The position numbers and the translations under genes are program-made. A stretch of DNA of 37,573 nucleotides from a virus: IMG/VR virus record IMGVR_UViG_3300037247_000622, positions 1 through 37,573 of that record; one strand, 5' to 3'. Within the stretch, counting starts at the first letter, position 1. Every line of letters starts with the position of its first letter. Of this stretch, positions 8,236 through 35,318 are shown in pieces. The notes under the pieces are model-generated. The model did not search any database and was not told the DNA's origin. It saw only the letters and a program-made list of their open reading frames with translations.

Positions 8236-8236
8236 C

Positions 8237-8518
8237 ATGAGAAAAACTATTCTTGTTGTATTGCTCCTGACGTTTGTGTTTGCCATGACTTTAACTGGCG
8301 GGCAAATCAAGAAGCCGGATAGCTACCGCCATGCCCGCTTGAAAGTTAAAAAGGTTCGATACGAATTGATTTGGGACTGCCAAGAGAAAGGGACAACCCA
8401 TCTAGTAATACATGTGTTCGATGAGTACGGGGCAGAACACATAGTTTACCTAGACACTCCTGGCGTCATCTTTGGTCGTCACGCCATCACCCCAATGGAT
8501 TGCCAAGGCAACAGATAA
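8237..8518 (+). CDS. Small secreted or membrane-anchored protein
   Basis: A 93-residue protein with a clear N-terminal signal sequence: M-R-K, then a hydrophobic run to about residue 20, ending near GGQ. The mature part has two Cys (near 47 and 89) and strand-forming segments such as LVIHVFDEYG. The first base after the terminase stop begins the ATG. An exported phage protein here could act in lysis or block superinfection, but nothing in the sequence decides. Confidence 0.5.
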   Translation: MRKTILVVLLLTFVFAMTLTGGQIKKPDSYRHARLKVKKVRYELIWDCQEKGTTHLVIHVFDEYGAEHIVYLDTPGVIFGRHAITPMDCQGNR

Positions 8519-8519
8519 G

Positions 8520-10535
8520 ATGGCATTCCTACAAGAACAACCCGAAGCCCTACGCGACATCCAGCCGGTCGAAGCCCAAAGCCTCTTCCCACGCCAGATA
8601 CCAGAAGACCTGACTGCTCTCAGGTTAGTAGTGGGGGATATGAAGAAGGCCGAGGCGTGGGCCAATATGTTCATGTGGCGCTTCAACCGCTATGACGACC
8701 TCTACCTCTTCCGAGTGCCGATGGCTTTCTGGGAAGGCACCACCGTGCCCCGCGCCCACCTGGGCGTCCCCCTGGTCTACGAGCACATTGAGTCGCTGCT
8801 GCCTCAGGTCATCAACACGCTCTTCCTCCAGCTTCCTCCCTTTATGAGTCGCCCCCGGCCCGGCACCAGTATGCAGGTAGCACGCGCTAATGACGGCGTC
8901 TTGGGTTGGGAGTTGGAGCAGACTTTCTTCCGCGAGCAAATCCGCCTGTTGGCCAAGAGCGCCCTCCTCTACGGCACCGGCATCGGCAAGTGGGGCTGGC
9001 TCACCGAGACTAAATCCAAAGTTCGTGTCCGTAGAGTGAAGGAACCACCCTCCATCGCAGACCCTATCACTGGCCGTCTACAGCAAGTCGAGACTCCCGA
9101 CACTGACGACCTAGAGGTCGTCGTCGAGGACGAGGTAATCAACCGCCCGACCTTTGAGGCTCTCGACCTCCGCCACGTATTCGTTGACCCCGGCCTGCGT
9201 CTGCCAGACGTTCGCAAGGCCAAGTACGTCATCCACCAAGCCTATATGACCATTCGGCAACTTGACGCCCTGCGCGATGTGGAAGGCTACGACATCCCTG
9301 ACCAGAGGCGGCTAGTTAGCTTTTTCTTTCCTCCGAAAGAGGAAGCTATCCACTCCTTGGCGAGTCAGACTACTGGGGGCTCTCTGGCTTCCTTCACCAA
9401 GGAGTTCGAGCCCGCCAAGGTTGAGGAAGACACGTCAGTCAACCCGCTGGAGCATCCCCTGGAGGTGCTGGAGTACTGGTCGAAAGACCGCATCGTCACC
9501 GTCCTTCAGCGCAAGCTGGTGCTCCGGTCAGAACGCAATGAGTTCAACGTCATCCCCTTCGTCTCCACCGTCTACAGCGACGTGCCTAACCAGTTCTATG
9601 GCATCGGCGTCACCCAACTGATTGGCCCCGAACAGAGGCTCCAACAGGGCGTCATCAATGCTCGTCTTGATGACTTGTCCCTGATGCTGAACGGCATGTT
9701 CATCCGCGTCCGTGGAGCCAACACTCCTACTCAGCAAATCCGCGTCCGTCCCGGCGGAGTCATCGACAGCGACTCGAAGGACGGCGTGACTCCCATCGAC
9801 CGCAAGCCCGCCGTTCCTGAGTCCTTCGCTGAGATAGACGCCAGCGACAAACGGGCCCAGCGACGCACCGGAGCCAACGAGCTAGTCGTGCAAGGCACAA
9901 TCCCCTCCAGCGGCTCTACCTTCGGGCGCACAGCTACCGGCATCAACGCACTCTCCGCTGGGGCAGGCACTCGCATTCAATACTTCATCGAGAACCTGGC
10001 CGACCAGGTCTATGTGCCCGTCCTTCGCGCCTTCACGGAGATGAACCGCACTCGTCTGATGCCGAGCCAAATCCAGCGCGTCCTTAGCGAAGAGTTGGCT
10101 ATCCAGTACGAGGGCGATGCTCTTGACATTCTGAATGGCCGGTTTGAGTTCGAGATACTGGCGGCGGGCAAACTTCAGGCCCGCTCCAGCATGGCTCAGT
10201 CCCTACCCCTGCTATTCCAGTTCATCACCAACGAGCCGGTCATCGCCGCCCTGGCTGAACAGGGCCGCAAGGTGAACTTCGCTGAGCTGGTCAATATGGT
10301 CTTTGATGTGAGCGGCTGGCCCAACAAGACCGACGTGATAGTGGCCATGACTCCGCAGGAGCAACAGCGACGGCTGATGAACAATCCCGCTGTGGCTGCA
10401 CAGGCACTGGCGGCACAGAAGTCAGAGCAGAAGAGCCGTGAGGCAGAACAGAAACTCGAAGGGCAGGCTGGTAGGGACATCCTGAAAGCCAGACTAGAGG
10501 AGGTGGTAGGTGGAACCGAACAACCAGCAGGATAA
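8520..10535 (+). CDS. Portal protein
   Basis: A 671-residue protein, the size of podoviral portals. I place the start at the ATG at 8520, just after the previous stop; an in-frame GTG at 8472 lies deep in that gene. Features include an N-terminal aromatic-rich region, a long alpha/beta core with VIPFVSTVYSDVPNQFYGIGV (followed by EQRLQQGVINARLDDLSLMLNG) in the middle, and a C-terminal helical, Gln/Ala-rich tail. This middle segment is typical of portals that dock DNA at the vertex. Gene order (terminase, portal, scaffold, capsid) supports the call. One 12-mer repeat lies near its start. Confidence 0.85.
   Translation: MAFLQEQPEALRDIQPVEAQSLFPRQIPEDLTALRLVVGDMKKAEAWANMFMWRFNRYDDLYLFRVPMAFWEGTTVPRAHLGVPLVYEHIESLLPQVINTLFLQLPPFMSRPRPGTSMQVARANDGVLGWELEQTFFREQIRLLAKSALLYGTGIGKWGWLTETKSKVRVRRVKEPPSIADPITGRLQQVETPDTDDLEVVVEDEVINRPTFEALDLRHVFVDPGLRLPDVRKAKYVIHQAYMTIRQLDALRDVEGYDIPDQRRLVSFFFPPKEEAIHSLASQTTGGSLASFTKEFEPAKVEEDTSVNPLEHPLEVLEYWSKDRIVTVLQRKLVLRSERNEFNVIPFVSTVYSDVPNQFYGIGVTQLIGPEQRLQQGVINARLDDLSLMLNGMFIRVRGANTPTQQIRVRPGGVIDSDSKDGVTPIDRKPAVPESFAEIDASDKRAQRRTGANELVVQGTIPSSGSTFGRTATGINALSAGAGTRIQYFIENLADQVYVPVLRAFTEMNRTRLMPSQIQRVLSEELAIQYEGDALDILNGRFEFEILAAGKLQARSSMAQSLPLLFQFITNEPVIAALAEQGRKVNFAELVNMVFDVSGWPNKTDVIVAMTPQEQQRRLMNNPAVAAQALAAQKSEQKSREAEQKLEGQAGRDILKARLEEVVGGTEQPAG
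8614..8625 (+). repeat. Repeated 12-mer, copy 1
   Basis: CTGCTCTCAGGT, inside the portal gene. Here the flanks extend it to ACCTGACTGCTCTCAGGT (8608-8625), an inverted repeat with 6-base arms. The 16 bases 8610-8625 are identical to copy 4. Confidence 0.75.
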
Positions 10536-14610: not shown

Positions 14611-14952
14611 ATGGCTGATGAAAGAGCCGTTGTAATGACCCCCGACCAGCTTGAATCGCTGGTCAAAGCTGCCCGCTCACCCATCGTGGACGAGGCTGCT
14701 CTCAGGTCGAAAGAAGAATCCCGCCTACGAATGCGAGAGAAGATTGCTCAGAAGCGCCGCAATGACGAAAGGAAATATGCTGCTTGTGGGCATTTGCGCG
14801 AGGACAATACAAGTCGTATGGCGTGGATGTTCAACAGCGATGGTGTCCGCCGTGGTGTATGTCAGTTCTGCGGCATGACCTGTGCGCCCGACCATCCTGA
14901 GTACGACCGCCTCATTCGCATTCCTACACGTGCGCCCCACATCGTAGGGTAA
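14611..14952 (+). CDS. Zinc-binding late protein
   Basis: A 113-residue protein with an AAGGAG site. A charged helical N-terminal half (residues about 10-55) is followed by ACGH (about 58-61) and RGVCQFCGM (80-88), which together could hold one zinc ion. A 12-mer repeat copy lies in its middle. Late position and helix-plus-zinc layout suggest a small assembly factor. No family is recognised. Confidence 0.5.
   Translation: MADERAVVMTPDQLESLVKAARSPIVDEAALRSKEESRLRMREKIAQKRRNDERKYAACGHLREDNTSRMAWMFNSDGVRRGVCQFCGMTCAPDHPEYDRLIRIPTRAPHIVG
14696..14707 (+). repeat. Repeated 12-mer, copy 2
   Basis: CTGCTCTCAGGT inside the zinc-binding late gene, same strand as the gene, followed by C as in three other copies. 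No inverted arms are kept here. Confidence 0.7.
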
Positions 14953-18006: not shown

Positions 18007-19785
18007 ATGCCTCCGATAGTCCCTATTGAGCCCATCTACATTAGTAACTTCTCGATTGGGCTATGGTCGAATCGTTCGCCATTCTCACTGCCGGGCGGCA
18101 ATCCCTCCGCTCTGCTAGACGGTCTCAACTGCGAGATTACCCCGCAACACACCGTCAAGCGGAGGGCGGGTTACAATGCTCTACTCAGTACGGCATTGGC
18201 GGGCGGAGAAAGTGCACAACGGTTCTTCTCATTCCGCCAGTTGGACGACACCCTCTTGCTAGTAGCAGATGCGACTACTGCTCTCAGGTCGGTTGCCGTG
18301 GCCGGAAATACCATCACCACTTTCTATACGCCCACCAATAGTAGCACTCCATACTCATTTGCGCCTGTCGGCAGCATGCTCTACTTTGCCAATGGCAAGA
18401 CAGGCGAGGAACAGAAGTGGGACGGCACTAATCAGACTCGTTGGGGCATAGTGGCTCCAACGGACACGCCAACCACGGCTCAAACTGCGGGTTCTTTAAC
18501 AGCAGCTCGTGGTTATGACTATCGCTTCGTCTATAAGAACTCTAGCACAGGGCACATCAGCACGGCTTCTCCGGTGTCTGCTTGCACCAACCCATTCACT
18601 AGCAAGAAGATTACAGTGACTGGTAATTTTGGTTCCGATAGTCAAGTAGATTTGATTGAGGTCTATCGCAATGCAGATGGGGGAGGTATTTTCTTCCTGC
18701 TCGGTACAGTCACTAATCCAGGTAGCGGCACATGGGACTTCGAGGATGAGATAGCCGACTCGGCCCTTGGCACACTAAAGGCTCCGCTGGCCGGACTCAA
18801 TGACCCTCCTACCGATGGTATAAATAACGTTGTGTTCCACAGTGGGCGTATGTGGGGCTCAGTAGACAACATCGTCTACTACAGCGGGGGCGGTGAGATA
18901 CTCAATGGGGTGCCAGAGGAAGCATGGTCGGCCCTCAACTTCTTTAACTTTCCTGGCAAAGTGACGGCTCTCTTCCCTTTCGCAGTGGGGCTTCTAGTAT
19001 TCACTGAGAGCGATTTGTTCGTGATTCGCGGTATCGACCAGACATCCTTCTTCGCCATGCCTTGGCAGAAACGGCTTGGCATCAGCAGCAACCGAGCCAT
19101 AGCGGGCACAGAAGACCGGGCATTTATCTTCACGTCTTCCCGCGAGTTGCTGTCCATTGCACCGGAAGAGATTAGGGAAGTTGGTTTCCCCATCGCCGAT
19201 CGGCTTGCCACCATTGCCCCCTCGTCAGTTGAACTCACTCTGCATCGGGATGAAGCAACAGACAATAACCTCTACGTGAGTGATGGTAATAGTTTCTTCT
19301 ATAAGATGGCTTTGGTGGACGAAGTGTGGAGCCCACGAGCCAATATCATAGGCGGCCTGAAAACTCTAGGCTCAGTTGAGACATCAGCAGGGAATTTTGA
19401 CTTGGTGTTGGGCCGGTCTACCACTATCCTGAAGCGTAGCAGCACTGTATTCACTGACGACGGCACCGCCTACGCCATGAATATGAGCTTCGGTTCATTC
19501 GTTATCGCACCCCCCGCTGTACTACGCGAGGTGGAGGCCATCATCTTGGAGCGGAGTTCAGGCAACACAGACTATGCAGTTGGCGTCCGTCTCAATGAGG
19601 TCGGCTTGGAGTACAAACTCATACTCGACAAGGTGAATGACCCACCGTTGCTCGGCGCATCAGACACCGCCCGGTCTCTCCGTTACTACATCCGGGAGAT
19701 GGCTCGGCACTTGCAGGTGCAGTTGTCACTGCCTGCCGAGGATAATGGAACACAACTCTACTCCCTAACATTGGTGGCCAAGTAA
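18007..19785 (+). CDS. Tail nozzle-like beta-propeller protein
   Basis: A 592-residue protein beginning right after the previous stop. The N-terminus (NFSIGLWSNRSPFSLPGG, LDGLNCEITPQHTVKRRAGY) is typical of phage nozzle/stabilisation proteins of the T7 gp12 kind. Repeated blade-like strands follow (QLDDTLLLVADA; GSMLYFANGK; RMWGSVDNIVYYSGGG; GLLVFTESDLFVIRG). No tape-measure gene is present, in line with a short tail closed by a nozzle. A 12-mer repeat lies inside the first quarter. Confidence 0.65.
   Translation: MPPIVPIEPIYISNFSIGLWSNRSPFSLPGGNPSALLDGLNCEITPQHTVKRRAGYNALLSTALAGGESAQRFFSFRQLDDTLLLVADATTALRSVAVAGNTITTFYTPTNSSTPYSFAPVGSMLYFANGKTGEEQKWDGTNQTRWGIVAPTDTPTTAQTAGSLTAARGYDYRFVYKNSSTGHISTASPVSACTNPFTSKKITVTGNFGSDSQVDLIEVYRNADGGGIFFLLGTVTNPGSGTWDFEDEIADSALGTLKAPLAGLNDPPTDGINNVVFHSGRMWGSVDNIVYYSGGGEILNGVPEEAWSALNFFNFPGKVTALFPFAVGLLVFTESDLFVIRGIDQTSFFAMPWQKRLGISSNRAIAGTEDRAFIFTSSRELLSIAPEEIREVGFPIADRLATIAPSSVELTLHRDEATDNNLYVSDGNSFFYKMALVDEVWSPRANIIGGLKTLGSVETSAGNFDLVLGRSTTILKRSSTVFTDDGTAYAMNMSFGSFVIAPPAVLREVEAIILERSSGNTDYAVGVRLNEVGLEYKLILDKVNDPPLLGASDTARSLRYYIREMARHLQVQLSLPAEDNGTQLYSLTLVAK
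18278..18289 (+). repeat. Repeated 12-mer, copy 3
   Basis: CTGCTCTCAGGT inside the nozzle-like gene, preceded by A and followed by CGG. It is in the same frame as copies 1 and 2 (coding Ala-Leu-Arg), but copies 4 and 5 are not in + strand genes. Confidence 0.7.
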
Positions 19786-26123: not shown

Positions 26124-26278
26124 AGTAGGCCCTTCCCTCTCAGACAGTCGGCGCACACTGACCCGTCAGTTGTATATGTCGCGTTATCCTCCATTTCATG
26201 GTAAATCTCCCTGCTCGGTTCGTCGCACCAGCTACACTTAGCCCCCGTGCAGATGTCACAAAACACAAAGGTTACCAT
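26117..26278 (-). CDS. Zinc finger-like protein, Gly-x-x-Trp tail family (member 2)
   Basis: A 53-residue protein. The start at 26278 has AGGAG in front and lies inside the end of the polymerase gene in another frame. It has CDIC at residues 7-10, an extra CSWC at 15-18, and CADC near the end, followed by LRGKGLLW. The last two codons overlap the next start (CTATGGTGA). Three Cys pairs make it the most Cys-rich member. Confidence 0.65.
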   Translation of the reverse strand: MVTFVFCDICTGAKCSWCDEPSREIYHEMEDNATYTTDGSVCADCLRGKGLLW

Positions 26279-28466
26279 AATCTCCTCCGACCTTCGCCGT
26301 GACTGGAACCACCAACCCACCCATCTCCTTGACCGGCCGTGTCATAATATCTTTGAGACGTGTGATTGTAGCTGTTGCCGTACCAACAGGTAGGCAATAC
26401 ACAAGTTCGTCATGTACGATAAGGATAGGAATGAGCGCTTCTTCTTGCCATATATCCAGAGCCCGCTGATTGACAATGTCAGCAGCACTAGAGCACCCAT
26501 AGTAGTGACAACCCTTCTTCTTCCTCGTATGTGCGTCTTGCCCATAGATGTACCTCACCCGCCCAAACGGATTAACTAGCGTAATCTCACCGCCTTCGAG
26601 AAGACACGAGACCTTACTTTGCCATTCCCTGACAGCTGGATACGCATTGAAATATGCAGCTTGGAGTCCAGCAGCTCGTCCAAGTGAGCCACGCTTACGG
26701 TCTCCAAACAATCGCTCAGCAAGACTCGCAGGCAACTCACCATAATTGCTCGCGTGAATAGTCTTCTTTCCCTCAAATCTCTCTTTGTCAGTGACATCCT
26801 CATACCTCTTGTTATAGATTCGGCTTGCCGACAGCCGGTGAAAATCCATGCCCGATGCGAAGTCAGACAACATCTGCTTGTCGCCAGCCAGCCACGCTAC
26901 GCATCTGTTCTCAATCTGCGAGAAGTCCAGCCCCACTATGACCATGCCTTCAGGTGCCACTATCATCCGTCTCAGTGACGGCGGGATGTTCTGGAAGTTC
27001 GGCTCCGACGAGCTGAAGCGCGCCACGTCCGTACCCGTCACATTGAAGGTCGGATGCACTTTGCTCTTGCCCAATGGGAACCACGTCGTGATGGGCTTGA
27101 CACCCAGCTCCTTGTAGTCGGCCAACTGCTCCATCAGCGGGTGCCGGTCAGCCTGCCGCTTGATAGTCACTTCCTTGGTGTCTCGCAGGGTGATGCCTTC
27201 ACTGTCGAAGAACTCTATCACCTGCTTGGGCGAGTTGGGATTGAACGGGAAGTCATCCTTCAACAACTGCTTGTTGCCCTGCCACTCACGGTGATACCGC
27301 CTGACTGCTCTCAGGTCTATGTCAACTCCTCGCTCCCTCATCAGCACAGCCAGCCTAGCTAGGCGTTGCTGCTTCTCGACTAGGTGCCATTGGTCGGTGG
27401 TGGTGAGGTCGGCTTTGAGCTGCTCGTAGAGGTAGTAGTTGTAGGCACAGTCTCGTCCGTTGTACTCAAGTAAATCGCCTTTATCCTCTTTCCAACCAGT
27501 TGCCGGTCGGTAGTAAGAAACGAGGGAGCGGAGTCCGAGGAGTCCAAGGTTGGCGAGGTGGGCGTGGATGAGATGAGCCACCACCTTAGTATCGAATATG
27601 CAATCGGGATGGTAGCTAGTTGGATGATGACTAAGAGTGTTGAAATCGGCATCAATGACATTGTGACCAATGAGTAACTTATGGTTATCAAGGCGGTTGG
27701 CCAACAGATGCCTACCATCTGCCACATCGTAGGTCGAGTATGCTTTGTCAGCTTCATATGCTACTCCTATACAAGAGATTTCTTTCGTCTTTCTATCCCA
27801 CTCTAGGTCGAACACCATTGGCCCAGGCTGGTCAGGCAACATGCCCTTGACCACCGTGGGATACTTCAGGATGGATGGATTGGCATGGGCGGTGAGCAGG
27901 TTGTAGTGCTCACGTATGGCGACGGGCAATAGGTTGGGCTGACGCATCACCGCCGATGGGTGAAACGTACAACCAACCAACTGTCCGCCTTGGAAGGTGA
28001 CGTGGCCATGCCAATCCGAGATGCCTCTTAGTCCAAGTTTTTGTCCAAGCGCCTTGCCTCCAACCAGCATGATAGGCACGGAGGCGGGGATGGTTTTATC
28101 ATACTGTCGGCAATGCATTTCAGCCTGAGCTTTATCAACTCCCACAGGGTACGCTTCACCTTGCTTGTTCTTAGGGGGCAAGCATCGCAGAGTATTGTCA
28201 AGATAGACCTCCTTTCGGCTGAGCCCAACCGGGTTTAGAATGTTGCGGAGCAGCCACCAACCAGCCTTGCCAACGAATGGCTTGCCTTGCAGCACCTCGT
28301 TGATGCCTGGGGCCTCGCCTATAATAGCCATCTTTATCCGCGACCAGACCGGAGCAGGCTCTAGCACAAAGCCCTTGCCCACGCCATACAGCGGACAGCC
28401 CTTGCACGTGTCTGGCTGGCCTGTGCCCCCCGCTTTACCGGCCAGCGGCATGACTAGGGCTACCAT
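26256..28466 (-). CDS. Uracil-DNA glycosylase/family A DNA polymerase fusion
   Basis: A 736-residue fusion. The ATG at 28466 lies within the Trp-stop of the small gene before it. Residues 1-200 are a family 4-type glycosylase: Cys 21, 24, 95 and 119 match the iron-sulphur ligands, GEAPG (50-54) is the first active-site motif, and FHPSA the second. A 3'-5' exonuclease follows (FDLEWD, IGHNVIDADF, YNGRDCAYNYYL). The polymerase has motif A (DFSQIENR), motif B (RFEGKKTIHASNYG) and motif C (VHDELV). In motif B a His takes the place of E. coli Phe762. SPO1 polymerase also carries a glycosylase-like N-terminus. It would copy the genome and could remove or sense uracil. Confidence 0.92.
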   Translation of the reverse strand: MVALVMPLAGKAGGTGQPDTCKGCPLYGVGKGFVLEPAPVWSRIKMAIIGEAPGINEVLQGKPFVGKAGWWLLRNILNPVGLSRKEVYLDNTLRCLPPKNKQGEAYPVGVDKAQAEMHCRQYDKTIPASVPIMLVGGKALGQKLGLRGISDWHGHVTFQGGQLVGCTFHPSAVMRQPNLLPVAIREHYNLLTAHANPSILKYPTVVKGMLPDQPGPMVFDLEWDRKTKEISCIGVAYEADKAYSTYDVADGRHLLANRLDNHKLLIGHNVIDADFNTLSHHPTSYHPDCIFDTKVVAHLIHAHLANLGLLGLRSLVSYYRPATGWKEDKGDLLEYNGRDCAYNYYLYEQLKADLTTTDQWHLVEKQQRLARLAVLMRERGVDIDLRAVRRYHREWQGNKQLLKDDFPFNPNSPKQVIEFFDSEGITLRDTKEVTIKRQADRHPLMEQLADYKELGVKPITTWFPLGKSKVHPTFNVTGTDVARFSSSEPNFQNIPPSLRRMIVAPEGMVIVGLDFSQIENRCVAWLAGDKQMLSDFASGMDFHRLSASRIYNKRYEDVTDKERFEGKKTIHASNYGELPASLAERLFGDRKRGSLGRAAGLQAAYFNAYPAVREWQSKVSCLLEGGEITLVNPFGRVRYIYGQDAHTRKKKGCHYYGCSSAADIVNQRALDIWQEEALIPILIVHDELVYCLPVGTATATITRLKDIMTRPVKEMGGLVVPVTAKVGGDYGNLCVL
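27305..27316 (+). repeat. Repeated 12-mer, copy 4
   Basis: CTGCTCTCAGGT on the + strand, antisense within the polymerase gene. The 16 bases 27301-27316 equal those of copy 1. The flanks keep a 5-base inverted pair (CCTGA/TCAGG). Confidence 0.75.
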
Positions 28467-28603
28467 ATCCAACCTCGCTTGCGAGCACAATCTAAGCAAA
28501 TCCAATGCCACCCAAGTTCCGTCGCCGTCTTCCGCCAAGCACACATGTCTCGCTTGCGGATAGCGCCACGACAATCAGAGCAAAGAGTCTCGATTAGACT
28601 CAT
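28460..28603 (-). CDS. Zinc finger-like protein, Gly-x-x-Trp tail family (member 3)
   Basis: A 47-residue gene, the shortest member, just ahead of the polymerase. CSDC (residues 8-11) and CLDC (36-39) form the knuckles; the end is ARKRGWIW. Its ATA TGG TAG supplies the ATG of the polymerase, so the two are probably translated together. The binding site before its own ATG is weak (AAGAG). Confidence 0.65.
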   Translation of the reverse strand: MSLIETLCSDCRGAIRKRDMCAWRKTATELGWHWICLDCARKRGWIW

Positions 28604-29585: not shown

Positions 29586-29839
29586 TCCAACCCTACCTTT
29601 TGGAGAAAGTCCTTCTTGTCCATCTCCACTCGCTTGCCATCTTGGAGGATGACGATGATGTCGGCTTGAGAGACATCCATCTCATACCAAGTCTTGCCTT
29701 CTATATCATTGACGGATTTGCGAAACTCCGGTGCTGTTGTAGTCCATGCGACGCCGCTTGGGATGGTGGTAATTGGGTGGCCTGGGATGGTGAACGTACC
29801 CCCATTGGTGGGGACTGTGGTGCTGTCGGTGTTTGTCAT
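29579..29839 (-). CDS. Small acidic protein with Gly-x-x-Trp tail but no zinc site
   Basis: An 86-residue protein whose ATG overlaps the ClpP-like stop. It begins with a Thr/Pro/Gly-rich segment, then an ordinary alpha/beta stretch (TWYEMDVSQADIIVILQDGKRVEMD) and ends DFLQKVGLEW. There are no Cys. It shares only the Gly-x-x-Trp end with the zinc finger proteins, which suggests the tail can be used apart from the finger. The function is unknown. Confidence 0.55.
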   Translation of the reverse strand: MTNTDSTTVPTNGGTFTIPGHPITTIPSGVAWTTTAPEFRKSVNDIEGKTWYEMDVSQADIIVILQDGKRVEMDKKDFLQKVGLEW

Positions 29840-30426
29840 TACTCTATTACCCCGTCGATGAGATTCAACTCAAGGGCTTCTTCGGGCGTGAACACCTGGT
29901 TACGCCGAGCGATAAGTCCTTGCAGCTTCTTCTTAGTCATGCCAGTACGAGCTGTGATAATGTCGTTGAGGGTGCCTTGAGTTCTCCGAATCTCTTTCTG
30001 GGTATCTTCCGTGCTAGAGAACGAGCCGACGTTTGCAGCCGAGAGTTCGTGCAGACCGAGCGAGCAGTGGGCTGTGGCGAATCGCTTGGTGGCGGCCTGG
30101 AGGATGATGGCCCCCATGCTCATGCACTGACCAGTGGCGACGATGTTGATGGGCGTCTTACGGGCTCCGGTTATGGACTTGAGTAGGTCATAGATAGCCA
30201 GCCCATCAGCCACTAGTCCGCCTGGAGTGTTGAGGATGATGTTGATGGGCTTATTCGAGTCCTCTGACAAGAAAGAGAGGATGCGAGTCAGGTAGTACTG
30301 GACTTCGGAGTTGATGACTCCGGTGATGTAGACTTCACGGCGGTCAATGGCCGAGCGGTCTATCATCTCGTGAATAGGCATCGAGGGGTTGGTCGGGCGT
30401 CTGCTACGACGTTTATATCTCGGCAT
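29839..30426 (-). CDS. ClpP-like serine protease
   Basis: A 195-residue protein. I place the start at 30426 because AAAGGAG precedes it; the frame is open further upstream. A basic N-terminal 15 residues precede the ClpP fold: GQCMSMGA with catalytic Ser103, and RFATAHCSLGLHEL with His127 at the expected distance. The PEEALELNLIDGVI end is also typical. By eye, the position of the third catalytic residue (Asp) holds Ile, so activity is not certain. Phage ClpP-like enzymes are usually prohead proteases; this one lies among early genes. Confidence 0.8.
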   Translation of the reverse strand: MPRYKRRSRRPTNPSMPIHEMIDRSAIDRREVYITGVINSEVQYYLTRILSFLSEDSNKPINIILNTPGGLVADGLAIYDLLKSITGARKTPINIVATGQCMSMGAIILQAATKRFATAHCSLGLHELSAANVGSFSSTEDTQKEIRRTQGTLNDIITARTGMTKKKLQGLIARRNQVFTPEEALELNLIDGVIE

Positions 30427-30736
30427 TCTTATCTCCTTTAGGTCTGTCATCCAGCTCTGGATGGGTCTCTTCAAATTCCATCAGTGTGAGCGCGCACCAG
30501 GCTACGCTGGCTAGGTGGTGCTGTCCATCTTCAGGGTCTAGCCTCTCGCCGCCCCACCAAGCCCAGCCATGACGCATCATGGCACCGAAGATGCGCCACC
30601 ACGGGATACCTTCCTCCCAATTCCTGTCACTGTACTTCTTGGCCCCTAGCGTATAGACCTCAACCAGCTTGAATAGCGGCTTGACAGGCAGCAGGTCGAA
30701 GCGTGCCTTACCAGAGTCGTGTTTAATCCCAGCCAT
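30413..30736 (-). CDS. dATP/dGTP diphosphohydrolase N-terminal-like protein
   Basis: A 107-residue protein. KHDSGKARFDLLPVKPL (residues about 5-21), TLGAKKYSDRNWEEGIPW (29-46), then RHGWAWWGGERLDPEDGQHHLASVAWCALTL match the family PF18909 (DUF5664), described as dATP/dGTP diphosphohydrolase, N-terminal. It would change the dNTP pool during replication. It overlaps the ClpP-like gene, for which its AAAGGAG is the binding site. Confidence 0.7.
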   Translation of the reverse strand: MAGIKHDSGKARFDLLPVKPLFKLVEVYTLGAKKYSDRNWEEGIPWWRIFGAMMRHGWAWWGGERLDPEDGQHHLASVAWCALTLMEFEETHPELDDRPKGDKNAEI

Positions 30737-33795: not shown

Positions 33796-33969
33796 TTACC
33801 ATAAGTGGCCTAACTCTCTTGCGTGCTTCTCGCACAACCAGATATTCGCATTCTTTCTAAAGTTCCCATACCAGTTGCAGATGTCACAATAACTCTCATC
33901 CTCTGCGGCGGTGTAAGGTTTCTCAAGATGGCCCGCCGGTAAATCTACAATGGCGATGGGGCTCATCAT
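33796..33969 (-). CDS. Zinc finger-like protein, Gly-x-x-Trp tail family (member 8)
   Basis: A 57-residue protein, below usual gene-finder size. ATG 33969 (or the next codon) follows AAGGTAGAG. CDIC (residues 28-31) and WLCEKHARELGHLW at the end give a full member, closest to member 7. TTA TGG TAA GGA G ends the gene and forms the binding site of the exonuclease gene. Confidence 0.65.
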   Translation of the reverse strand: MMSPIAIVDLPAGHLEKPYTAAEDESYCDICNWYGNFRKNANIWLCEKHARELGHLW

Positions 33970-33971
33970 CT

Positions 33972-34124
33972 CTACCTTCCTAATGCTTTGTTTGCTTGCT
34001 GCTTAGTAAGTCCCGTCCGCATGAGTGCCTTCTCCATGTAGTCTCTACCCATGCAGTCGGCCTCCATCGTCTGGACTAGAATCTGTACGAGCACGGACTC
34101 CAGCAGTGTCAGTGGTTTAGCCAT
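33972..34124 (-). CDS. Small helical protein, 50 residues
   Basis: A short gene with GAAGGAG before its ATG, overlapping the previous stop by eight bases (ATGGCTAA). It is predicted to be two helices: LTLLESVLVQILVQTMEA and then YMEKALMRTGLTKQQANKAL, with one Cys. The second half could be a small helix-turn-helix. No family is recognised. Confidence 0.5.
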   Translation of the reverse strand: MAKPLTLLESVLVQILVQTMEADCMGRDYMEKALMRTGLTKQQANKALGR

Positions 34125-34386
34125 CTTCGTCTCCTTCCAACTGGTCTAGTATCTTGTCAAGGTTCTGATGAGAGCGGAGGATGCGGAGGGCCGACTTGGC
34201 TCGCCTCGCAGTCAGTTGGGCTGCCACTTTGGGACTTACGCCAGACCAACGACTGATGTTCTGGAAGTCCCGCGACGCTATCCATGTGCTCCGGTCAGGT
34301 TCATGGAGATGCGCGAGACTATCCAACAGCACTACCAGCCACAGTCTCTGTTCATTACCTGCCACTCCGCGTCCTCTCTCTCTCAA
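34117..34386 (-). CDS. Basic helical protein, possible DNA binder
   Basis: Up to 89 residues with a TTG start at 34386. A good AAAGGAG lies 16 to 22 bases upstream, before a five-codon ATG frame (M-L-V-R-V) whose stop overlaps the TTG. That small frame may couple translation. Residues about 35-80 (WIASRDFQNISRWSGVSPKVAAQLTARRAKSAL) resemble a helix-turn-helix. The end is acidic (EGDEDG). Confidence 0.45.
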   Translation of the reverse strand: MRERGRGVAGNEQRLWLVVLLDSLAHLHEPDRSTWIASRDFQNISRWSGVSPKVAAQLTARRAKSALRILRSHQNLDKILDQLEGDEDG

Positions 34387-34442
34387 ACTCTGACTAGCAT
34401 TTTACTCCTTTATCCTGTCCGGCCAGGGGGCATTGCTTCCGT

Positions 34443-34458
34443 CTCAGTGGCCACTGAG
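34443..34458. repeat. Perfect 16-bp palindrome
   Basis: CTCAGTGG joined directly to CCACTGAG. A dimeric protein site is the usual reading. It lies 57 bases before the coding start at 34386. Confidence 0.7.
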
Positions 34459-34492
34459 GGAGTTACCCTGCTAGTCATAACTATAATAGCGA

Positions 34493-34525
34493 GCCCCTGC
34501 CTGCTCTCAGGTCATTGACAGGGGC
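34493..34525. repeat. Inverted repeat with 12-mer in loop
   Basis: GCCCCTG (34493-34499) and CAGGGGC (34519-34525) enclose 19 bases that contain copy 5 of the 12-mer. The only intergenic copy thus sits at the tip of a possible hairpin or cruciform. Confidence 0.55.
34501..34512 (+). repeat. Repeated 12-mer, copy 5
   Basis: CTGCTCTCAGGT in a non-coding stretch, on the + strand although all nearby genes run left. Its presence outside genes rules out a protein-level explanation for the repeat. Confidence 0.75.
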
Positions 34526-34567
34526 CAGTTGGGTTGGTTCCGGGTAAACCATAACCTCCCAACTACC

Positions 34568-34611
34568 CTCACACCTATACTGCCTCAATCAAGAGTGTAG
34601 TTAGGTGCGAG
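34568..34611 (-). terminator. Long hairpin at the 3' end of the ssDNA-binding gene
   Basis: CTCACACCTA (34568-34577) pairs with TAGGTGCGAG (34602-34611) over ten base pairs (one mismatch or wobble, depending on strand), and after a one-base bulge five more pairs can form. The stop codon at 34601-34603 lies in the stem. No T-run follows on the minus strand, so it may protect or process the message, or act with Rho, rather than end it alone. Confidence 0.4.
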
Positions 34612-35029
34612 GGGTGAAGAAGTAACTGACTTCGAGTCGTGACGCATCGTCCTTCTGGAGCTTCGTACCGAAACCGACCATGCGGCCAGTCAAGGCGTTG
34701 AAGTCCATGTCGCCTTCGGTGATGCCAGCGCCAGTGAACAGACCGCGCATCAACTTACGGACGTTGATGTTATAGCTTATCTGTTCGTTGGTGGTGGTGG
34801 CGGTGAAACCGGGCTGGAGCCACTCAGGCTTGATGTTGATACGTGCGTAGAAGGTGCGGTCAGACTGGTCAGTATCCTTCAACCGATAGGCTAGAGGGAT
34901 AGTTACCTGTGTGTAGCCGTTCCTGACTTCGCGGGATTCGACCTCGCCTATCCTGCCGAGCGCCTTAAATGCGAAGGCTTCCGGCTTGGGCACATCCTCG
35001 ACTCTGATATTGCTGACTAGCGTGTTCAT
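34601..35029 (-). CDS. ssDNA-binding protein candidate
   Basis: A 142-residue protein with GAGGAG before its ATG and a strong promoter just upstream. Strand-rich segments (GYTQVTIPLAYRL; RTFYARINIKPEWL) and a C-terminal LTGRMVGFGTKLQKDD...LEVSYFFTPR suit an OB-fold ssDNA-binding protein of phage type. It has its own promoter and a 3' hairpin, in line with high output during replication. I infer the function from pattern and context. Confidence 0.6.
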   Translation of the reverse strand: MNTLVSNIRVEDVPKPEAFAFKALGRIGEVESREVRNGYTQVTIPLAYRLKDTDQSDRTFYARINIKPEWLQPGFTATTTNEQISYNINVRKLMRGLFTGAGITEGDMDFNALTGRMVGFGTKLQKDDASRLEVSYFFTPRT

Positions 35030-35069
35030 GTGTTGTTGTCTCCTCGTTTTGTATTCGACTTACGAGGGC

Positions 35070-35098
35070 ATTTTACCACACGCCGTGCTGAAAGTCAA
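35070..35098 (-). promoter_or_regulatory. Promoter of the ssDNA-binding gene
   Basis: On the minus strand: TTGACT (35098-35093), a 17-base spacer ending in TGTGG, and TAAAAT (35075-35070). It shares the TGTGG-TA block with three other promoters. It lies between the stop of the gene at 35109 and the ssDNA-binding gene. Confidence 0.65.
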
Positions 35099-35108
35099 GT
35101 TCTTTCGC

Positions 35109-35318
35109 TCACCACAAAACCCCCGCCTCCCTAGCATGAGCCTCGCAGAGATAGGGTTGCTGTTTATCTCGTGTCCACCCTTTGATTAGTCTGCCTAATT
35201 GCTTAGGTTTTGTCGCATTATCGCCACAAATATCACACAGGAAACCTGTTTCGGCAAGGAAGCTACCATTGAAGCTCATAAGGTAGCCTTTTATTAAAAT
35301 CATCTGTCGCTTGGTCAT
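35109..35318 (-). CDS. Zinc finger-like protein, Gly-x-x-Trp tail family (member 9)
   Basis: A 69-residue protein; ATG 35318 overlaps the previous stop (ATGA). CDIC (about residues 28-31) and CEAH (57-60) form the knuckles, and the end is AREAGVLW. After its TGG TGA comes a promoter, not a coupled gene, and no ATG is hidden in its end. The conserved Trp is therefore not a by-product of gene overlap. Confidence 0.65.
   Translation of the reverse strand: MTKRQMILIKGYLMSFNGSFLAETGFLCDICGDNATKPKQLGRLIKGWTRDKQQPYLCEAHAREAGVLW

Follow-up and report, generated by a model that had tools for sequence, protein, structure and literature searches.

A 33-bp inverted repeat in the largest gap of the early gene block is nearly identical in four lineages of one phage group, and the 12-mer within its loop recurs in exact copies on a single strand of the genome. 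The window (W), i.e., the whole stretch of DNA that was analysed, is the 37,573-base virus record IMGVR_UViG_3300037247_000622. In IMG/VR, both the repeat and the extended form of its core are restricted to this group. The 12-17-bp sites look like recognition sites of a phage-encoded sequence-specific DNA-binding or DNA-nicking protein, and we infer such a recognising protein, a nick and promoter activity at the gap copy. The gap is best read as the boundary between operons behind an SSB-like gene, where a hairpin is followed by a putative strand-specific protein site that overlaps a probable promoter. The most valuable part of the stretch is this central element together with its genome-wide family, named in the initial annotation only as "the 12-mer", and comparison with relatives separates functional from chance repeats in an intergenic gap of this kind.

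The gap, its neighbouring genes and the stop-codon hairpin

The early block is encoded on the minus strand, and the interval 34387-34600 (214 bases), described in the initial annotation as the only large gap of that block, is indeed the largest between its ORFs, the runners-up having 79 and 51 bases. The start of the downstream gene is most likely the GTG at 34365 rather than 34386, as placed by the ORFs of relatives, and the gap therefore becomes 34366-34600. This downstream gene (34117..34365, minus strand) encodes a small all-helical protein, which we do not call DNA-binding because a fold search with it gave no significant match. The upstream gene (34601..35029, minus strand) encodes a protein of 142 aa with a predicted OB fold that is SSB-like (AlphaFold model pLDDT 72; the top Foldseek match is PrgE of pCF10, E 3.4e-4, and bacterial SSBs come after it at weaker E; searches of Pfam and PHROG gave no match). 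Its predicted sigma70-type promoter, TTGACT-17-TGnTAAAAT (35070..35098, minus strand), was located by promoter scan and conservation; both boxes are invariant in W and in the relatives G002, G003, G004 and G005, and the upstream half of the spacer is variable. Replication genes are found near the gap (SSB-like, Sak4-like, exonuclease and polymerase). Elsewhere in the window, a uracil-DNA glycosylase domain is joined to a family A DNA polymerase (26256-28574), an early-block gene encodes a ClpP-like protease (29839-30474), late-strand promoter-like pairs TTGACA-18-TGnTATACT are present at 1467 and 10826 (also two each in G002, G003 and G005), and the terminase-portal interval contains a stretch of about 285 bases (8236-8519), including a 93-aa ORF, that is absent from G001, G002, G003 and G005.

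Relatives were collected from IMG/VR with the SSB-like protein, which returned five contigs (L001-L005), and the terminase added two contigs. In the gap, W and L001-L005 amount to four independent lineages, L001 being equal to W there and L005 to L004. Near-complete relatives measure 45-47 kb, and W is short of that by about 8.4 kb. Among annotated phages, neither a DNA search with 33800-35200 nor a protein search with the SSB-like protein gave a match, and the closest by terminase is Tunturiibacter phage Tunturi_3 (28.5% identity); in genome_contigs, 42 stretches fitted a pattern of the SSB-like protein and 0 were relatives. L001, which is also G001 (IMGVR_UViG_3300043220_000028), has 8,507 bases identical to W and, in the late region, the same BLAST figures against W as G002; it is either recombinant or assembled as a chimera. 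The invariant-run, k-mer, nick-motif, promoter-pair and gap-size comparisons did not include G001 and G004, and G005, dropped by a length filter from the gap row of the conservation table, was restored in the later invariant-run comparison. For the k-mer counts the first 2,202 bases of G003 were removed as a terminal duplicate. Both ends of G003 (L017 and L019) match window 13-15 kb, and because their site contexts differ they are not a simple exact terminal repeat.

All three inverted repeats listed in the initial annotation are present in the gap. The one next to the SSB-like gene is a long hairpin over its stop codon (about 34564..34615, minus strand), identified by folding and covariation as an RNA structure that is conserved. 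For the 76 bases 34550-34625 the folding energy is -34.3 kcal/mol (z -5.3; matched by 0 of 200 shuffles), and a hairpin forms in all four lineages, including L002, which has an insertion in the loop, was therefore excluded from the pair count and, folded separately, forms one at the same place. In an alignment of W, L003 and L004 with a hand-placed gap, all three sequences have standard pairing at 17 of 19 pairs, and five pairs have changed on both sides. In the unmodified alignment of the same sequences, pairing across the 13 inner pairs is 100%, and three of these pairs show double changes. A control in which the partner was moved by 1 to 3 columns was clear (26-39% paired, 0 double changes); because only three sequences entered it, the shuffle control is weak, the covariation score being reached in 22 of 500 shuffles. 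The 5' arm codes for protein and its amino acids differ, and it is therefore the 3' arm that follows it. Searches of the whole window against Rfam gave 0 matches at gathering cut-offs and, below threshold, only three weak ones; those that fall in the gap look fortuitous.

An intrinsic terminator was considered and rejected: as the initial annotation had remarked, no T-run follows any of the repeats, and 0 terminator-like sites (a GC-rich hairpin with a T-run) were found in 34100-35200. The hairpin most likely protects, processes or helps end the transcript of the SSB-like gene. In T7, early mRNAs contain intergenic hairpins that are cut by RNase III. The hairpin described here is likewise long, irregular and placed between early genes; unlike those of T7, it covers the stop codon, and its cleavage is putative.

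The palindrome CTCAGTGGCCACTGAG (34443..34458), perfect over 16 bp, is by inverted-repeat count the window's only loop-free perfect palindrome with 8-base arms, a kind of which chance predicts about 0.6 in the window and, for 225 bases, about 0.003 (from 4^-8). In the relatives it is replaced by imperfect dyads (CTCAAGTGGCCACTGAG in L002, CTCAAGTGGCCATTGAG in L003), and in L004/L005 the segment is missing with the flanking genes retained, which is in part the pattern that the initial annotation had named as speaking against a function. The proposed transcript would carry the palindrome in its leader, and the palindrome may be an operator or a leader hairpin of minor importance.

The conserved inverted repeat and the promoter-like boxes

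The third repeat, GCCCCTG-N19-CAGGGGC (34493..34525, minus strand), holds the 12-mer CTGCTCTCAGGT (34501..34512, plus strand) in its loop. Judged by arm length alone it is not remarkable, since repeats with 7-base arms and loops of up to 20 bases number 48 in the window, as chance predicts. This number is what favours the reading that the repeats arose by chance and have no function; the reading is contradicted by conservation and by the copy number of the 12-mer (see below), and we regard it as very improbable. Arms and loop are the same in the four lineages except for one A/G position, and the remaining gap sequence diverges. The minus-strand sequence GCCCCTGTCARTGACCTGAGAGCAGGCAGGGGCTYGCWATWATAG is common to the four lineages; at R and Y, W has A and C and the others have G and T. 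In IMG/VR the exact repeat pattern was found in 5 contigs, all of them members of this group. The sister phages G007 and G009 encode the SSB-like gene (34% and 50% identity) and behind it have no perfect inverted repeat with at least 7 arm bases, so the gap element looks specific to this phage group. A DNA-binding site would fit the element, because it is invariant and because its core recurs elsewhere.

A promoter scan of the minus strand gave the boxes CTGAGA-16-TATTAT (34483..34510; 9 of 12 positions), of which the -35-like box lies within the 12-mer. CTGAGA scores 4 of 6 as a -35 box and stands 16 bases from a -10 box that fits TATWAT in three of the four lineages (TATTAT in W, TATAAT in L002 and TATTAT in L003, compared with AATTAT in L004). 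The -10 box is weak in L004/L005, and TG precedes it in L002, L003 and L004.

This arrangement is what a regulator acting without nicking would leave behind: the repeat would serve a middle-type promoter as its operator or activator box, with a factor at the -35 region and an extended -10, and the other copies would bind the same regulator. The position of the -35-like box inside the 12-mer, its spacing to the -10 box, the TG in three lineages and the lack of a canonical -35 in the gap pair, unlike the other early promoter-like pairs of the group with their TTGACW boxes, all agree with such a regulator; however, a -10-like box is found at the gap copy only, and the other 12-mers lie inside genes in both senses. 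We consider a regulator alone a serious contender, if on balance unlikely. In T4 middle promoters, a box bound by the activator MotA takes the place of the -35. The gap copy resembles them in having a conserved box at the -35 position together with an extended -10-like box; unlike in T4, the other copies are without a -10, and no MotA-like protein was detected among the proteins scanned.

The initial annotation had proposed for the whole stack of repeats an operator, an origin or an RNA-processing site; the proposal is borne out in part, and the parts of the stack now separate. Compensatory changes speak for an RNA role of the hairpin and the evidence above for a DNA-binding site at the 7-arm element, whereas an origin is disfavoured because the GC skew has no switch at the gap. 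The reading as a replication element, i.e., a (single-strand) origin or primosome site with a hairpin formed by one strand, would account for the one-strand motif, the conserved hairpin-forming repeat and the replication genes nearby. Cumulative GC skew falls along the whole genome, across both gene blocks, and the four other copies of the 12-mer lie in genes and have no arms; we therefore think such an element improbable.

The dispersed 12-mer and 17-mer sites

CTGCTCTCAGGT occurs in W in 5 copies on the plus strand and 0 on the minus strand, spread over both gene blocks. In addition to the gap copy, the k-mer count places it in the portal gene (8614..8625, sense), in ORF 14611-14952 (14696..14707, sense), in ORF 18007-19785 (18278..18289, sense, not conserved) and in the DNA polymerase gene (27305..27316, antisense). 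No 12-mer exceeded 3 copies in Markov-shuffled windows (20 shuffles of order 3 and 100 each of orders 4 and 5). The strand counts in relatives are 3-0 in G002, 4-0 in G003 with the terminal duplicate dropped and 4-0 in G005; counted in full, G003 has 5 (two in the duplicated ends), and G004 and G001 have 2 each, always on the same genomic strand. With five independent sites the one-strand polarity by itself has p about 0.06 (arithmetic), and copies with one mismatch occur on both strands. A blind k-mer count ranks CTGCTCTCAGGT first in W only, and a two-stranded second 12-mer tops the other group members. This second dispersed 12-mer, TGCTCCGGTCAG, has 4 copies in W (7436, 9520, 22787 and 34287, on both strands), and G002, G003 and G005 contain 6-7 exact copies, again on both strands; written as GACC-GG-AGCAG it resembles the first motif written as GACC-TGAG-AGCAG.

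The sites at 8614, 27305 and 34501 share a longer 17-mer, CCTGMCTGCTCTCAGGT (8609-8625 in the portal gene, 27300-27316 in the polymerase gene). In IMG/VR it has 15 matches in 7 contigs, every one of this group, and it is present wherever the site is covered (gap 5/5, portal 6/6 and polymerase 4/4 other contigs; the last two portal contigs were assigned to the site by position next to the terminase). The portal copy lies within a 21-base run that is invariant in W, G002, G003 and G005, and the polymerase copy within a 20-base invariant run; these runs are long and not extreme, since 3.4% and 7.9% of positions, respectively, are in runs that long or longer. Site 14696 is exact in W, G003 and G005 and has one mismatch in G001 and G002, and site 18278 is exact in W, has one mismatch in G003 and is lost in G002, G004 and G005. 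Three of the five site positions are thus kept in every covering contig and two are not. Ten related contigs from outside the group all lack the 11-mer core (0/10), and in the nearer sister phages G007, G009 and G010 no 12-mer reaches 4 copies. Multi-copy words alone are not unusual, because the more distant G012, G013 and G015 do have multi-copy 12-mers, mostly overlapping-word sets.

The polarity of the sites tracks the DNA strand and not transcription: the late-gene copies are sense, and the copy in the polymerase gene is antisense. This bears on two further readings. An early leader RNA containing ACCUGAGAGCAG might pair with its complement in late mRNAs, since it has at least 12 perfectly complementary bases to three late-gene sites, one of them about 94 bases into the portal gene. 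The polymerase copy, however, has the same sense as the leader and cannot pair with it, yet is among the best conserved, and pairing therefore seems quite improbable. Short, asymmetric, dispersed sites would also be expected of stoperators of the Cluster A mycobacteriophage type, to which an immunity repressor binds. According to PMC6550527, stoperators mostly hold one orientation relative to transcription; the sites described here resemble them as asymmetric short sites over the genome and differ in an orientation independent of transcription, sense in the late block and antisense in the early block. No repressor was detected among the proteins scanned, and we give stoperator-like sites hardly any credence.

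A putative nicking system and its counterparts

The best explanation of the gap and the motif set that we can offer, held with somewhat less than even confidence, would be an operon boundary that contains one of the dispersed sites of a phage-encoded strand-specific nickase. Nicking is the likeliest single mechanism, well short of proof, closely followed by a regulator for which the site would take the place of a -35 box. The gap in the early block would be the boundary between operons, and the mRNA of the SSB-like gene would finish in the conserved hairpin without a T-run, so that the transcript is protected, processed or ended there. Just behind this hairpin would come the almost invariant 33-bp DNA element, whose core would be one of a few 12-17-bp one-strand sites around the genome recognised by a phage-encoded protein. 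This protein would most likely be a nickase specific for one strand, comparable to those at work in tf, Rembedalsseter, phiKMV and T5, and the joining of the gap site to a -10 box would let binding or nicking act also on the promoter for the next early genes. That the group has a further, independent strand-specific genome-nicking system, which recognises a 12-17-bp sequence of its own and has one site within the early promoter behind the SSB gene, we think conceivable and rather doubtful. If true, the unexplained nicks would be linked to replication or to early transcriptional control.

No nickase gene was identified. The published nick consensus sequences of tf, Rembedalsseter, phiKMV and T5 gave no match to the sites, and in this group the tf and phiKMV motifs are either lacking or no more than single-copy, and that of T5 is not confined to one strand. 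We would not file the motif set as a member of the phage nick-site class; published motifs differ between groups, and the mismatch to their consensus would be no defining failure. The same k-mer count, run blind on phage tf, ranks the proven nick motif first (11 to 0). In tf, the mapped nick sci11 lies just behind an OB-fold gene, after a GC-rich repeat (one case of 14); the parallel to the gap behind the SSB-like gene is suggestive and was drawn post hoc.

Site-specific nicks in phage genomes are described in PMC11780129 as known for some 50 years, with their function not known. As reported in PMC3517423, tf has 14 nicks, all in the top strand; for Rembedalsseter, PMC11780129 gives 13 motif copies, all on one strand and coinciding with breaks, and an enrichment of the motif in 60 related phages. 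Both sources describe nick motifs on one strand, inside and outside genes and at positions common to relatives (PMC3517423, PMC11780129). The sites in this group are like those of tf (TACT/RTGMC) and Rembedalsseter (WACTRTGAC) in being a short motif repeated on one strand whatever the gene direction, and three of the five positions are kept in every covering contig; tf, in addition, is likewise about 46 kb long, with convergent gene blocks and a nick behind an OB-fold gene. They differ from both in sequence, in greater length (12-17 bp), in fewer exact copies (4-5 compared with 13-14), and in having one copy in an inverted repeat at a promoter-like site, and nicks at these sites are putative. 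With sites that are few, long and highly conserved, and with one of these placed in a promoter-like element, such a group would make the function of the nicks testable.
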